Made by a program: the position numbers and the translations under genes. A stretch of 64,000 nt of DNA from Collinsella sp. BA40 (GTDB lineage Bacteria > Actinomycetota > Coriobacteriia > Coriobacteriales > Coriobacteriaceae), in assembly GCF_008014645.1 (NCBI RefSeq), contig NZ_VOWY01000001.1:62001-126000 (forward strand), written 5' to 3'. Below the pieces are notes generated by a model. It did not search any database and was not told where the DNA came from. It saw nothing but the letters and a program-made list of their open reading frames with translations. Positions 14,480 to 35,983 of this stretch are shown here, in pieces (the stretch's first letter is position 1; every line of letters starts with the position of its first letter).

Positions 14480-14649
14480 CTATCGCGCGAGCACCGCCTT
14501 CGATTTCGGACGTGCTGTTGTTCGCGCGTGGCCCGTCCGAGCTCCTATCGGCTCCGGGTCCTGTCCCGCTGCGCGGTCTACGCAGGCGGGGCCATCTGTA
14601 CGACAAGCCGCCCGGACCGACACGGGGTGGCACGGATGAGGAGGTTTTC
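14480..14649 (+). promoter_or_regulatory. Structured leader of aspS with a T-box-like GGGTGGCAC
   Basis: The 170 bases before aspS hold several stems. CGCGCGA.GCAC pairs with GTGC...TCGCGCG within 14485-14531. CCCGC.TGCG pairs with CGCA.G.GCGGG at about 14566-14596. GGTCC and GGACC pair around that hairpin. They are followed by GGGGTGGCAC just upstream of the AGGAGG ribosome-binding site. GGGUGGNAC is the heart of the T-box antiterminator, but the rest of that motif and an Asp specifier loop are not recognisable. I therefore call only a structured leader. From 14263 to 14480 I see nothing else definable. Confidence 0.35.
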
Positions 14650-31051: not shown

Positions 31052-31111
31052 CATTATTCTATCTTACGAATAATGATACGTGTTCAAACGATGGACGATT
31101 CCCGTTAGAAT
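31052..31111 (+). promoter_or_regulatory. rnf promoter with upstream inverted repeat
   Basis: TTCAAA (31083-31088) and TAGAAT (31106-31111) are 17 bases apart, a plausible promoter 66 bases before rnfC. Just upstream, CATTATTC 31052-31059 and GAATAATG 31068-31075 form a perfect 8-bp inverted repeat with an 8-base spacer, a likely operator. It is loosely Fur-box-like (ATAATGATA), but the regulator is unknown. Confidence 0.55.
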
Positions 31112-31176: not shown

Positions 31177-32514
31177 ATGTTCTCTCTTCATAAGACGCTG
31201 GGCGGCGTCCATCCGCCCCAGTGCAAGGACACGCGGGATTGTCCCTGCACGTGGATCGAGCCTCCCAAGCAGGTTCGCATCCCGCTCAACATGCACATCG
31301 GCGCGCCGTGCACGCCGTGCGTCGAGGAGGGCGCGCACGTGTACGTGGGCACCAAGATCGGCGACGGCGAGGGGCTGTGCGCCCCTATTCATGCAAGTAT
31401 CTCCGGTACGGTGACCTCGGTTGCCACCGAGAAGCTGCCCACTGGCGCCACGGCCCCGGTGGTCACCATCGCCTCCGACGGCAAGATGGAAAACGACCCC
31501 GCGCTCACGGTTCCCACCTATAGCGGCAAGGACGAGTTCATCGCCTGCGTGCGCGATTCCGGCGTGGTGGGCCTGGGCGGCGCATCGTTCCCCACGTGGT
31601 TCAAGATGCGCGCGCCCGAGGGCAAGAAGTTCGACTTCGTGGTTATCAACGCCATGGAGTGCGAGCCCTACATCACGAGCGACTACCGCCAGATGATCGA
31701 GCACGCCGAGCGCGTGATCGACGGCGTGGTGCGCGTGGCGCGTGCGCTCGAGATCCCCGCCGCCGTCATCGGCGTCGAGGATAACAAGCCCGAGGCCGTC
31801 GACGCGCTCAACCGCGCCATCGCGGACAAGGGCGTCGGCGATATCGTCGAGGTGCTCATGGTTCCCACCAAGTACCCCGCGGGCGGCGAGAAGGTCCTCA
31901 TCGAGGCCACGACCGGCCGCGCCGTCCCCGCCGGCGGCCTGCCCATCGATGCCGGCTGCCTGGTGCTCAACGTCACCACGGTCTCGCGCGTGGAGGAGTA
32001 CTTCCGCTACGGCGTGCCGCTGGTCCGCCGCACCATCACCCTTGCCGGCGACTGCGTGAAGAACCCCGGCAACTACCGCGTCCCGCTCGGTATGATCGTC
32101 CGCGACGTCATCGAGGCTACCGGCGGCCTTGAGAAGCAGCCCAAGAAGATCATCATGGGCGGACCGATGATGGGCCGCACGGTCACCGATATCGACTGCC
32201 CCATCCTCAAGGCGAACAACGCCATCCTGTGCCTGGACAAGGACGCCGTCCTGCCCGAGGAGTCGCCTTGCATCCGCTGCGGACGCTGCGTGCGCGTGTG
32301 CCCGCTCGGTCTCATGCCGTACGCGCTCGACGCCGCCAGCCGCCGTCACGACGCGGTCGAGCTCGACGAGCTCGCGGTCATGAACTGCATGGAGTGCGGC
32401 TCCTGCGCGTTCACCTGCCCCGCCCATAGGCGCATCACCGCATCGATCCGCGAGGGCAAGGCCGCCTATCGCGGCGAGGTCGCCCGCCTGACCCAGCCTG
32501 CGAAGGAGGCGTAA
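31177..32514 (+). CDS. rnfC: Rnf complex subunit RnfC
   Basis: This 445-residue peripheral subunit is the NADH-binding part of the Rnf ferredoxin:NAD+ oxidoreductase. It keeps LGGVHPP at the N-terminus, the NADH/FMN motifs GGASFPT, MECEPY and YPAGGEK, and two 4Fe-4S motifs, CIRCGRCVRVCP and CMECGSCAFTCP. An unusual Cys-containing N-terminal stretch (CKDTRDCPC, then CTPC) is also seen. ATG 31177 follows AGGAAGGGGAG. It is the first gene of a tight rnfCDGEA cluster; rnfD starts 3 bases after its stop. Confidence 0.95.
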   Translation: MFSLHKTLGGVHPPQCKDTRDCPCTWIEPPKQVRIPLNMHIGAPCTPCVEEGAHVYVGTKIGDGEGLCAPIHASISGTVTSVATEKLPTGATAPVVTIASDGKMENDPALTVPTYSGKDEFIACVRDSGVVGLGGASFPTWFKMRAPEGKKFDFVVINAMECEPYITSDYRQMIEHAERVIDGVVRVARALEIPAAVIGVEDNKPEAVDALNRAIADKGVGDIVEVLMVPTKYPAGGEKVLIEATTGRAVPAGGLPIDAGCLVLNVTTVSRVEEYFRYGVPLVRRTITLAGDCVKNPGNYRVPLGMIVRDVIEATGGLEKQPKKIIMGGPMMGRTVTDIDCPILKANNAILCLDKDAVLPEESPCIRCGRCVRVCPLGLMPYALDAASRRHDAVELDELAVMNCMECGSCAFTCPAHRRITASIREGKAAYRGEVARLTQPAKEA

Positions 32515-32517
32515 CGT

Positions 32518-33441
32518 ATGAACCTGATCTTCGAGGATTCCCCGCACTTCCACGGCAGCGCGTCCACCTTCAAGATCATGGGCGCCGTGTGCCTGGCGCT
32601 CGTGCCCACGCTGCTTGCGGCAACGTGGCTCTACGGTCTGGCCGCTCCGCTGCTGGTGCTGGTATGCATCGCCACGGCGCTCGTCTGCGAGCACCTGTGC
32701 TGCGCCATCATGCATCGCGAGTCCACCGCGGGCGATATGTCCTGCGTGGTCACGGCCATGCTGTTCGCCTTCACCCTGCCCGCCACGGCGCCCGTGTGGG
32801 TCGCCGTCCTGGGCACCGCGTTCGCCATCGTCATCGTGAAGATGATGTTCGGCGGCATCGGCAACAACTTCGCCAACCCGGCCGTCGCCGCGCGCATCTT
32901 CGTGATGGTCGCGCTGCCCAGCGCCCTTTCGTCCTATCCGGATGTGGTGGGCAAGCCGCTCGACGCCATCACCGGCGCGACGCCGCTCGCATTGGAGGCC
33001 AATCCCTACAGCATCATGGACCTGCTGCTGGGCAACCACGCGGGCGCCCTGGGCGAGACCTGCGTCATCACGCTGCTCATCGGATACCTCTTCCTGCTGG
33101 CCATCAAGGTCGTCGATGCGTGGGCGACCGTGCCGTTCATCGGCACCGTGGCGCTCATCATGGGCTTTGCGGGCGAGGATGTCGTCTTCCAGTTGCTCTC
33201 CGGCGGCCTGGCGCTGGGCGCCTTCTTCATGGCCACCGACTACACCACCACGCCCATGACGCCGAAGGGCAAGATCGTCTTCGGTATTGGCTGCGGCGTG
33301 ATCACGTCGCTGGTGCGCCTGTTTGCCGCCGCGCCCGAGGGCGTGGCGTTCTCGATCCTGTTCATGAACATGTTCGTGCCCCTGATCGACCGCTATACCC
33401 GTCCCCGTCCGGTTGGAGGTGTGAAGAATGCCCTCGTCTAG
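32518..33441 (+). CDS. rnfD: Rnf complex subunit RnfD
   Basis: This 307-residue integral membrane subunit has about nine to ten helices. Thr155 in TGATPL is the expected covalent FMN attachment site, made by ApbE-type flavin transferase (not encoded in this window). Conserved GGIGNNFANPA and the ending NMFVPLIDRYTRPR are typical. AAGGAGG inside the 3' end of rnfC drives translation. The last bases overlap rnfG by 14 nucleotides, indicating translational coupling. It carries electrons and helps ion movement across the membrane. Confidence 0.94.
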   Translation: MNLIFEDSPHFHGSASTFKIMGAVCLALVPTLLAATWLYGLAAPLLVLVCIATALVCEHLCCAIMHRESTAGDMSCVVTAMLFAFTLPATAPVWVAVLGTAFAIVIVKMMFGGIGNNFANPAVAARIFVMVALPSALSSYPDVVGKPLDAITGATPLALEANPYSIMDLLLGNHAGALGETCVITLLIGYLFLLAIKVVDAWATVPFIGTVALIMGFAGEDVVFQLLSGGLALGAFFMATDYTTTPMTPKGKIVFGIGCGVITSLVRLFAAAPEGVAFSILFMNMFVPLIDRYTRPRPVGGVKNALV

Positions 33442-34012
33442 CTCCTGGCTCTCGCGCCACCGCAACGGCGCGTTCTACACGCTCGGGCTCGTGCTCGCGG
33501 GCACCCTGGTGTGCGGCGGCGTGACCGCTGGCGTCCACTGGGTGCTTACCGACGCCTTCGCCGCGTCCGATGCCGCGCTCGATGAATCGAAGGGCGGCGC
33601 CCAGCGTGCGCTGCTGTTCCCCGATGCCACGTTCGAGAAGGTTTCCGCCCCCGCCATCGAGGGGCTCAACTCGGTGTACAAGACCGACGCCGGCGATTAC
33701 GTCTTCGATGTCCAGTCCAAGGGCTATCACGGCGATGTGGAGCTCATGGTGGGCATCACGTCTGCCGGCAAGGTCGCGGGCATCCAGGTCGTAGCCGAGG
33801 ACGAGACCGACGGCATCGGCACCAACGCCCTTACCGACGAGTACTTCGGCACCTTTACCGACCTGGCCGCCTCCGGCGTGCTCACGGTCGAGGACGCCGG
33901 TGCCGGCGAGACCAAGGTGGACGGCGTGTCCGGCGCCACCTTCACGGCCAACGCCGTCATCGCCGACCTCAACATCGCCTTCGAGGCGTACGCGCAGATG
34001 GGAGGCAAATAA
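33428..34012 (+). CDS. rnfG: Rnf complex subunit RnfG
   Basis: This 194-residue protein has one N-terminal membrane helix (about 17-40) and an FMN_bind domain on the outer face. Thr171 in SGAT (residues 168-171) is the predicted covalent FMN site. The GYHGDVELMVGI and VVAEDETDGIGT motifs are typical. The start overlaps the end of rnfD, with TTGGAGG upstream. With RnfD it forms the flavin wire of the complex. Confidence 0.94.
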   Translation: MPSSSSWLSRHRNGAFYTLGLVLAGTLVCGGVTAGVHWVLTDAFAASDAALDESKGGAQRALLFPDATFEKVSAPAIEGLNSVYKTDAGDYVFDVQSKGYHGDVELMVGITSAGKVAGIQVVAEDETDGIGTNALTDEYFGTFTDLAASGVLTVEDAGAGETKVDGVSGATFTANAVIADLNIAFEAYAQMGGK

Positions 34013-34013
34013 T

Positions 34014-34661
34014 ATGGCGCTGAATGAAAACATCGTGCGCGAGCAGGACGAGCGCGTGGCCGCTTTCGTGCGCACGCCCACCTTCGTCGTCGTCGCCGCG
34101 GCCCTGCCCGGTCTGTTTGCGGCCACGTCCACGGTCAACGGCATCGCCATCGGCCTGGCTACCGCCGTCGCCATCCTGGCGATGGCCGTCGTCGCCCCGC
34201 TGTTCCGCCGCTTCACCGGCGCGTTCTCCTTCCTGCCGCTCACGCTCCTTGCGGGCGCCACGGTATCGGTGCTCGTGAGCTTCGGCGTGCGCGTGGCCGA
34301 TCCGGCTGCCTACGAGTCGCTCGGTATCTACCTGCCGCTCACCTGCGTGAACGCCATGGCCGTGGTGTTCGTCGCCTGCGACGGGTTTACCGCCGACCCC
34401 ACCTCGAAGTCCTCGGTCGGCACCGCCGCGTTCGCCGCGCTCTGCGCGCTGGCAACGCTGGTGTTCGTGGGCTTCATCAACGAGATGTTCAGCACCGGTG
34501 TCGTCTTCGGCCTCACCATGCCCGAGCTCGCGGCCTCCCCGCTGTCCATCTTCGGTACGCCTGCGGGCTCGCTGCTCGTGCTCGCCTTGGTTGCCGCGTT
34601 CGTGCAGTCTATCTGCGACGTGTGCGCCTCGTCCGAGAACGCTAAGGAGGATGAGCGCTAA
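34014..34661 (+). CDS. rnfE: Rnf complex subunit RnfE, lacking the usual cluster cysteines
   Basis: This 215-residue integral membrane protein is of the RnfA/RnfE (NqrD/NqrE) family with six helices. The family pattern is clear (STVNGIAIGLAT, YESLGIYLPLTCVNA), but the two cysteines that ligate the intramembrane [2Fe-2S] cluster in characterised Rnf/Nqr are absent. LGLCP is replaced by AAALP (Leu31), and TNC by VNA (Ala114). A Cys sits at 111 instead. ATG 34014 follows GGGAGG. The stop overlaps the rnfA start (TAATG). Confidence 0.88.
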   Translation: MALNENIVREQDERVAAFVRTPTFVVVAAALPGLFAATSTVNGIAIGLATAVAILAMAVVAPLFRRFTGAFSFLPLTLLAGATVSVLVSFGVRVADPAAYESLGIYLPLTCVNAMAVVFVACDGFTADPTSKSSVGTAAFAALCALATLVFVGFINEMFSTGVVFGLTMPELAASPLSIFGTPAGSLLVLALVAAFVQSICDVCASSENAKEDER

Positions 34662-35257
34662 TGGAGTTCCTGAACTCGTTTTTCACCGCCGCATTCGATA
34701 ACAACATCGTATTCGCTCAGCTTATCGCCATGGTCTCTGTGATCCTGGTGGCCCATCGCCCGCAGGATGCCATCCGCATGGGCGGCCTTCTGGGCATCGC
34801 CGTCGCGGCGGCGGGCGTTATCGGCTGGCCGCTGTATGCGGGCTTTCTGATTCCCTGGAGCGTCTCCTACCTCGCGCCGCTTGGTTGCGTGCTCGCCAGC
34901 ACCGGCGCCATCTTCGTGGGCGGCACCATCATGGGTGCCGGCAAGCCCTCCGAAGAGCGCACGCGTATCCTGCGTTCCTGCACCATCTTGGCGTGCAACG
35001 CCGCCGTGTTGGCGGTTCCGTTGGCAAACGGCGCCGTGGCCGAGACGCTTACGTTCTGGTCGGCCTTCGGTACCTCGCTGGGTGCGGGCTTCGGCCTGTT
35101 CTTGGCCGTGGTGCTGTTCGCCTTCGTTCGCAACGGCATCGACGAGCGCCTGGTTCCGCATGCGCTGCGCGGCCTGCCCATCACGCTGATCACCGCCTCG
35201 CTCATGGCGCTTGCGTTTACGGGCGTCGCGGGCATCGCTGGCGGACTGTTCGTGTAA
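34661..35257 (+). CDS. rnfA: Rnf complex subunit RnfA, lacking the usual cluster cysteines
   Basis: This 198-residue paralogue of RnfE has six helices and inverted topology. It aligns along its length with RnfA proteins (NNIVFAQ, ending PITLITASLMALAFTG). The cluster ligands are missing: position 25 is Val instead of Cys (LGLCPF becomes IAMVSV), and the TNCAVLG motif reads CNAAVLA, with Ala at 114. The lost pair mirrors the loss in RnfE, so the intramembrane [2Fe-2S] cluster cannot form in the usual way. It is translationally coupled to rnfE. Confidence 0.88.
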   Translation: MEFLNSFFTAAFDNNIVFAQLIAMVSVILVAHRPQDAIRMGGLLGIAVAAAGVIGWPLYAGFLIPWSVSYLAPLGCVLASTGAIFVGGTIMGAGKPSEERTRILRSCTILACNAAVLAVPLANGAVAETLTFWSAFGTSLGAGFGLFLAVVLFAFVRNGIDERLVPHALRGLPITLITASLMALAFTGVAGIAGGLFV

Positions 35258-35271
35258 GGGGGATTTGACTG

Positions 35272-35460
35272 ATGACCGATCCTATCATCATGGTGGGCGT
35301 TCCGCCCATTCTGCTCGCCGTCATCGGCGGCGGCGTCGCCATCGCTCTGAGCATCTGCGCCGGCATCAACAACTTCGTCGACCGCCGCGAGGCTCGCGCC
35401 GAGGCCGAGGAAGCCGAGGCTTCCGACGCGGCGTCCGAGGAAGTGGCAGCGGAGGCGTAG
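35272..35460 (+). CDS. 62-residue membrane peptide at the position of rnfB
   Basis: This is a 62-residue product starting MTDPIIMVGVPPILLAVIGG. It has one membrane helix (about 7-30) and an acidic Ala/Glu tail (EARAEAEEAEASDAASEEV). It begins 14 bases after rnfA with GGGGG upstream and is followed by a strong terminator, so it is the last gene of the rnf unit. That is where RnfB (a roughly 280-residue ferredoxin-like subunit with an N-terminal helix) normally sits. The peptide looks like an RnfB membrane anchor without any iron-sulfur domain. It may be a remnant or a dedicated assembly peptide. Confidence 0.75.
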   Translation: MTDPIIMVGVPPILLAVIGGGVAIALSICAGINNFVDRREARAEAEEAEASDAASEEVAAEA

Positions 35461-35483: not shown

Positions 35484-35525
35484 AAAGCGCTCTCCAGGTT
35501 AGTCCTGGGGAGCGCTTTTGTTTTG
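35484..35525 (+). terminator. Terminator of the rnf operon
   Basis: AAAGCGCTC(T)CC pairs with GG(G)GAGCGCTTT (35507-35518), followed by TTGTTTT. Confidence 0.93.
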
Positions 35526-35572: not shown

Positions 35573-35983
35573 TTGGGTGGCGAGGTGCCTGCGATCGCGC
35601 AGGAGACAACCGAGGCTCGCCGAAAGCTCGCACGCTGCCTTGCCACGCTTGTTGCTCTCTTTATCCTTTATCTCATCGTGAATATCGTCGACGTCGCGTT
35701 CATGCGCGGCGAGTGGAACCATACGGCGCACTATGTGTGCAGCGGCATCCGAATCACCCTGGCTGCGTTCTCCATTCCCGTCGCGAGGCGCATGCGCGAG
35801 ATCACGCGCGGGCACGAGCTGGGTGACGCGGTGGAGATCATGATGTTCGTCGAGGGCTATCCTGCGGGCCAGGAGCCGCCGAACAACGTCTTCTACCGCA
35901 CGGTCCTCACCAACATCCCCGCGTTGTACACGCTGTTCCTCGTGGCGCTCGCGGCGGTATTCATCGCGATCGTCTACGCCTAG
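35573..35983 (+). CDS. Small membrane protein of unknown function
   Basis: This is a protein of about 136 residues with three likely membrane helices (about 19-43, 54-72 and 116-136) and a soluble loop containing RRMREITRGHELGDAVEIMMF. I do not recognise the family. The start is uncertain: TTG 35573 and GTG 35585 are both possible, and neither has a good ribosome-binding site. It lies between the rnf terminator and the convergent SDR gene, so it is probably a single gene. Confidence 0.65.
   Translation: MGGEVPAIAQETTEARRKLARCLATLVALFILYLIVNIVDVAFMRGEWNHTAHYVCSGIRITLAAFSIPVARRMREITRGHELGDAVEIMMFVEGYPAGQEPPNNVFYRTVLTNIPALYTLFLVALAAVFIAIVYA

Follow-up and report, generated by a model that had tools for sequence, protein, structure and literature searches.

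What can an Rnf complex do when both the subunit facing ferredoxin and the ligands of its intramembrane [2Fe-2S] cluster are gone? The question is raised by a 64,000-nucleotide stretch of the Collinsella sp. BA40 genome (contig NZ_VOWY01000001.1, positions 62,001 to 126,000; hereafter, the window), where rnfC, rnfD, rnfG, rnfE and rnfA follow one another on the forward strand (31177-35257), ahead of a 62-amino-acid open reading frame (ORF) and a hairpin. Every frame is intact, and the ORFs, their translations and the hairpin bear out an earlier sequence-only reading that had described this gene order with a membrane peptide and a terminator at its end. Rnf ranks among the main complexes by which anaerobes conserve energy; its electron path is U-shaped and runs through an unusual intramembrane cluster. 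In Acetobacterium woodii, electrons pass from ferredoxin through RnfB and the RnfA/RnfE cluster to the flavin mononucleotide (FMN) of RnfG on the outside, and return through RnfD and RnfC to NAD+; without the A/E cluster the ferredoxin:NAD+ activity is abolished, and direct transfer from RnfB to RnfC is judged unlikely (PMC11889175). For the Collinsella operon, the reading preferred here, with a probability of roughly 0.7, is that of a half-Rnf in which the ferredoxin-side arm is gone, the arm made of RnfC, RnfD and RnfG carries electrons from NADH outward, and the known Na+ pump is missing.

The loss of the cluster ligands was followed by residue-wise alignment with the A. woodii and Clostridium tetanomorphum subunits of solved structure. 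In RnfA, GICPFL has become AMVSVI and TTNC has become ACNA; in RnfE, GMCP has become AALP and VVNC has become CVNA. The ligand cysteines of the window's genome are replaced by valine and alanine in RnfA and by leucine and alanine in RnfE. Both losses had been read from the window alone, correctly for RnfA and, as regards the cysteines, for RnfE too, although the RnfE motif had been misread as TNC where the reference has VNC. Both proteins pass the cut-off of the PF02508 family but lie far below those of the NCBIfam subfamily profiles (79 bits against 229 for rnfA; 43 bits against 213 for rnfE). Their predicted folds, from models of moderate confidence, match 7zc6_A for RnfA (template-modelling (TM) score 0.76; mean predicted local distance difference test (pLDDT) 75) and 9eri_E for RnfE (TM 0.66; mean pLDDT 73). 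None of the four ligand cysteines occurs in any of the 30 RnfA/RnfE pairs of Coriobacteriaceae, all of which were aligned, while canonical relatives keep them in 16-17 of 18 aligned RnfA rows and 16 of 16 RnfE rows. Since the identical four losses recur in 30 of 30 related genomes, chance is ruled out.

An RnfB-like input encoded elsewhere in the genome, working with a substitute cluster in RnfA/RnfE, would preserve the ferredoxin side, and seven weak ferredoxin-domain matches to the RnfB profile could be taken as a trace of it. However, the source genome (1.93 Mb, 99.99% complete, 0.12% contaminated) has no RnfB above the family cut-off, the seven matches covering only the ferredoxin-like part of the profile. 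It also has no second RnfA/RnfE set beyond the one PF02508 pair and no match to TIGR01941, the NqrF profile. An rnfB elsewhere together with a second, cysteine-containing rnfA/rnfE set, which the sequence-only reading had named as evidence against itself, was looked for genome-wide and neither was found. Among 67 Coriobacteriaceae genomes, likewise, none has an RnfB above cut-off and the matches cover part of the profile only. Turning to the substitute cluster, other cysteines do occur in some sequences, RnfA Cys107 in 23 of the 30 divergent ones, but no column of RnfA or RnfE holds cysteine throughout the 30 pairs. The RnfA of locus L024 and the RnfE of loci L019 and L031 have no cysteine at all, so a substitute four-cysteine cluster is impossible there. 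A cluster built from relocated cysteines (Cys107 and Cys112 of RnfA; Cys110 and Cys144 of RnfE) was rejected, as these residues are not conserved. An input of this kind is highly improbable.

The other arm is intact. Alignment with canonical RnfC shows all eight cysteines of the two 4Fe-4S clusters to be invariant. RnfD keeps TGAT, with its covalent-FMN threonine and riboflavin asparagine/aspartate invariant in 23 of 23 divergent clusters, and RnfG keeps SGAT, with its FMN threonine and tyrosine equally invariant (23/23); the retention of these sites in all three subunits had been part of the sequence-only reading. At the level of sequence, the alignments show the first arm (RnfB and the A/E cluster) to be absent, and with it the known Na+-pumping coupling, while RnfC, RnfD and RnfG keep every cofactor residue that was checked. 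The loss of required residues predicts neither ferredoxin:NAD+ activity nor ion pumping.

Pumping could nevertheless persist if the cluster-free RnfA and RnfE coupled transport to RnfG redox changes through conformation alone, taking electrons from NADH and giving them to quinone or to an outside acceptor. RnfA and RnfE are under purifying selection throughout the family, their fold appears to be kept in the predicted models, and RnfE Arg67 and Asn107 are partly retained. What makes a surviving pump unlikely is that coupling in A. woodii relies on the charge of the cluster beside the Na+ site, and that RnfA Glu88, Tyr105 and Thr110, which the same work links to Na+ movement (PMC11889175), are all replaced: Glu88 by glycine, alanine or serine (23/23) and Thr110 by alanine or serine (23/23), with Tyr105 lost. 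Canonical relatives retain all three.

With the arm from ferredoxin to RnfG missing and its NADH-side counterpart intact, the most economical course is for NADH to feed RnfG. Electrons would then run one way: RnfC would take them from NADH, and RnfD would relay them to the FMN of RnfG, from which they would reach an acceptor outside the cytosol, both the direction and the outside acceptor being inferred. RnfA and RnfE would serve as a redox-silent, cluster-free membrane dock for RnfG. In a gut bacterium that lives by fermentation, the task of the complex would be to re-oxidize NADH and not to conserve energy from ferredoxin. The sequence-only reading had taken the coordinated loss to suggest a different electron path, which the absence of one full arm beside an intact other supports; of the different donor or acceptor that it also foresaw, the acceptor should indeed differ, while the donor is probably still NADH, since the missing arm is missing completely and the other is intact.

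Alternatively, the electrons of RnfG may go to membrane quinone or to a partner in the membrane whose gene lies elsewhere, which would make the complex an NADH:quinone reductase and not an exporter. The related NQR reduces quinone, and a membrane-bound acceptor would account for the finding that no secreted reductase tracks the operon. Yet NQR does so on its NqrA/NqrB side, and the corresponding arm here bears the RnfC clusters. Furthermore, the operon includes no partner gene, and conserved synteny extends to HtrA and LigA only. A quinone reductase thus seems a rather doubtful description.

Its distribution across the scanned genomes marks the divergent form as a single conserved, lineage-specific one and not a local accident. 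The gene cluster is present in 30 of 67 Coriobacteriaceae genomes (Collinsella, Enorma and relatives) and lacking in 37; by RnfA, the window's genome is nearest to Collinsella tanakaei (90% identity). The best RnfA/RnfE score per genome leaves a clean gap between other families of the order (E values of 1e-54 to 1e-68) and Coriobacteriaceae (1e-11 to 1e-21). By the same measure, 396 sampled genomes of the phylum revealed no independent case of a cluster-free pair: outside Coriobacteriaceae all score as canonical except for one weak match (genome G301), a fragment of 66 amino acids cut off by the edge of its contig. A scan of 84,980 species, each represented by a single genome, with short peptides conserved in the divergent RnfA hit 28 loci, all in Collinsella, Enorma or other Coriobacteriaceae-type genomes. 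In a tree of RnfC and RnfD, Coriobacteriaceae form one clade (support 1.0), placed beside a canonical, RnfB-bearing cluster of the same order (L077; support 0.875) and separate from the order's other canonical clusters. Most simply, RnfB and the A/E cluster would have been lost once, in the ancestor of Coriobacteriaceae. L077 comes from another family of the order (genome G073, 1.4 Mb) and, with 48% identity in RnfC, is the closest full-Rnf relative seen by RnfC and RnfD; it is a candidate stand-in for the ancestral cluster. The site of the operon is mostly fixed, with genes for an HtrA-type protease (17 of 22 neighbourhoods) and an NAD-dependent DNA ligase (19 of 22) as flanks. No published RnfB-less Rnf in Collinsella was found in the literature searched, which covered few subscription journals.

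The same genomes bear on decay, by which RnfB was lost, the complex ceased to function and the remaining genes are disappearing. RnfB is gone, RnfA and RnfE evolve faster than their canonical counterparts, and the 37 genomes without the entire cluster show it to be dispensable. Within Coriobacteriaceae, median identity is highest in RnfD (77%) and RnfC (76%), intermediate in RnfG (67%) and lowest in RnfA (58%) and RnfE (57%); in the canonical clusters of Coriobacteriales, no subunit is better conserved than RnfA (78%). The rank of constraint is inverted: RnfA and RnfE are the least conserved subunits of the divergent clusters, yet they are under purifying selection. Ratios of nonsynonymous to synonymous substitution (dN/dS) are 0.03-0.50 across the five genes in 12 pairs. 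For RnfA (0.08-0.50) and RnfE (0.13-0.37) they lie well below the value near 1 that the sequence-only reading had associated with pseudogenes. No PF02508 match in any of the 30 genomes has an internal stop, the cofactor residues of RnfD and RnfG are kept in 23 of 23 clusters, and the small peptide and the flavin transferase ApbE are strictly retained. Genuine damage looks otherwise, as in two canonical clusters of another family (L084 and L086; genomes G176 and G164, genus g70), where rnfA is interrupted in G176 and rnfA and rnfE are shortened, with stops, in G164, through real decay or assembly error. Decay into pseudogenes was rejected on the intact frames, the low dN/dS and the retained cofactor residues, as the sequence-only reading had expected in stating that this is not simple decay, and it is very improbable.

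The place of RnfB is not left empty. In canonical clusters of the order, RnfB begins 4-40 bases past rnfA (18/18), and at this position each of 22 divergent clusters encodes a peptide of 43-69 amino acids with one hydrophobic segment. It usually starts 10-14 bases past rnfA; for L053 the chosen start is 70 bases past it, and the L058 peptide probably begins at a GTG further upstream. Loss of the cysteines, absence of RnfB and presence of the small peptide, which the sequence-only reading had wished to see compared across the class, coincide in each of the divergent clusters examined, and canonical Coriobacteriales show the reverse of all three. Judged by the arginines and lysines after it, the helix of the peptide would be oriented like that of RnfB. 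In A. woodii, the RnfB helix touches the RnfG helix (PMC11889175). The peptide may be a remnant of the RnfB membrane anchor, perhaps packed on the RnfG helix. The broader proposition, that a lineage-wide half-Rnf arose when the pumping, ferredoxin-side arm was removed as a module, leaving an NADH-driven exporter, an RnfA/RnfE dock and a micro-subunit from the RnfB helix, is somewhat favoured.

ApbE is the flavin transferase that attaches FMN to RnfD and RnfG. It is found in 30 of 30 genomes that bear the operon against 7 of 37 that lack it (Fisher P = 1e-12, uncorrected for kinship). Two orthogroups can be told apart, one of which has an export signal and a lipobox in the window's genome. This exported group was confirmed in the 15 operon-bearing genomes checked, is inferred from profile score in the remainder, and is absent from the genomes lacking the operon, whose ApbE proteins fall in the second group or outside both. 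RnfG is the sole FMN_bind protein in each of the 30 operon-bearing genomes. The gene for the exported ApbE (L129:8323-9886) overlaps one for a PF07456 membrane protein (heptaprenyl diphosphate synthase component I), which may serve flavin supply for flavinylation, and a riboflavin energy-coupling factor (ECF) transporter gene lies close by. The second paralogue (L130:7982-9112) has no evident export signal and is also present in some genomes lacking the operon. In one Collinsella without the half-Rnf (L134; G018 C46:60559-68208), large proteins (frames of 277, 528 and 1283 amino acids) with five FMN_bind matches between them stand beside an ApbE about equidistant from both groups; the locus has the look of a multi-flavinylated system for extracellular electron transfer.

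Several observations weigh against an outward-directed half-Rnf. The P values for the co-occurrence of ApbE ignore shared ancestry. As for a dedicated acceptor, the operon-bearing genomes contain no FMN_bind protein other than RnfG, and the distribution of FAD_binding_2 reductases does not follow that of the operon among the genomes compared. Contacts between RnfG and RnfD are minor in canonical Rnf, and the persistence of RnfA and RnfE as a dock is, given this, a guess; continued selection on them could reflect an unrecognised transport role. Descent of the peptide from the RnfB helix is suggestive only: its profile aligns with RnfB by hhalign better than 100 of 100 shuffles, and in pairwise comparison it matches best the RnfB helix from the closest full Rnf (4 of 500 shuffles as good), but RnfG-helix controls score nearly as well.

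Where, then, does the half-Rnf stand among known systems? With the Rnf of A. woodii and C. tetanomorphum (RnfCDGEAB; PDB 9eri, 7zc6) it shares the C-D-G-E-A order and homologous subunits, including the NADH/FMN and 4Fe-4S sites of RnfC, the covalent-FMN sites of RnfD and RnfG, and the RnfA/RnfE fold. It differs in having no RnfB, none of the four cysteines for the intramembrane [2Fe-2S] cluster, replaced Na+-path residues in A/E and a one-helix peptide where RnfB should be. With Na+-NQR it has in common a homologous core, NADH as donor and the evolutionary loss of RnfB (PMC12174285); there, however, NqrF replaces RnfB and the four cysteines are kept, and the Collinsella genome has no NqrF. The closest analogue is the two-subunit NQR/RNF-like system, for which Meheust et al. 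proposed one-way electron flow in 2021 (PMC8238504). These systems likewise comprise only one arm of the U, through which electrons are predicted to pass one way from NAD(P)H to an FMN_bind protein outside the cytosol, and they depend on ApbE; but in them RnfD/NqrB forms a fusion with a PF00175 reductase and is without the flavinylation site of RnfD, and RnfA/RnfE are missing (PMC8238504; Huang et al. 2024, PMC10979944). In Collinsella, RnfC is a separate input, the FMN site of RnfD is kept, as are RnfA and RnfE, and RnfD is a protein of 307 amino acids with PF03116 as its sole domain and no PF00175 fusion. By analogy, a half-Rnf would work like the two-subunit systems. Since the 2021 survey recognised RNF by RnfB and NQR/RNF-like systems by PF00175 (PMC8238504), the Collinsella form fits neither definition; it is a variant of the Rnf/NQR kind that falls outside the definitions of Rnf, NQR and NQR/RNF-like systems alike.

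The stable removal of exactly one arm shows that the arms of Rnf are evolutionarily separable modules, and it offers a natural cluster knock-out for studying how electron transfer is coupled to ion pumping. It also carries a warning for annotation: these genes are easily labelled Rnf, which implies a ferredoxin-driven energy conservation in Collinsella that the sequences do not support. If electrons are exported, the operon would give common gut bacteria a new candidate route to reduction outside the cytosol, and be an electron exit so far unrecognised in gut Collinsella. It could also be an intermediate between full Rnf and two-subunit NQR/RNF-like exporters. The features of the operon are collected in Table 1.

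Table 1. Features of the rnf operon, in window coordinates.
Feature	Position	Strand	Description
Promoter-like hexamers 5' of rnfC	31083..31111	+	TTCAAA-17-TAGAAT, 9/12; weak, a consensus match only that says nothing on function
rnfC	31177..32514	+	NADH/FMN domain, SLBB, two 4Fe-4S clusters; NCBIfam TIGR01945, 450.7 bits, above cut-off
rnfD	32518..33441	+	Membrane flavoprotein; TIGR01946, 271 bits, above cut-off
rnfG	33428..34012	+	Membrane-anchored extracytosolic FMN_bind protein; PF04205, 54.8 bits
rnfE	34014..34661	+	Cluster-free; PF02508, 46.6 bits
rnfA	34661..35257	+	Cluster-free; PF02508, 60.6 bits
Single-transmembrane peptide, 62 amino acids	35272..35460	+	Arg-rich flank, acidic tail; occupies the rnfB position; without family match
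Strong terminator-like hairpin closing the operon	35484..35518	+	15 pairs, then TGTTTTG

Directly 3' of the terminator lies a 136-amino-acid ORF (35573-35983) with hydrophobic segments and no Pfam match, which is not one of the operon's conserved neighbours. No named regulatory RNA was found at the rnf operon. Elsewhere in the window, at 14563-14645, an aspS RNA (RF02930, 73 bits) represents a cis-regulatory RNA family.

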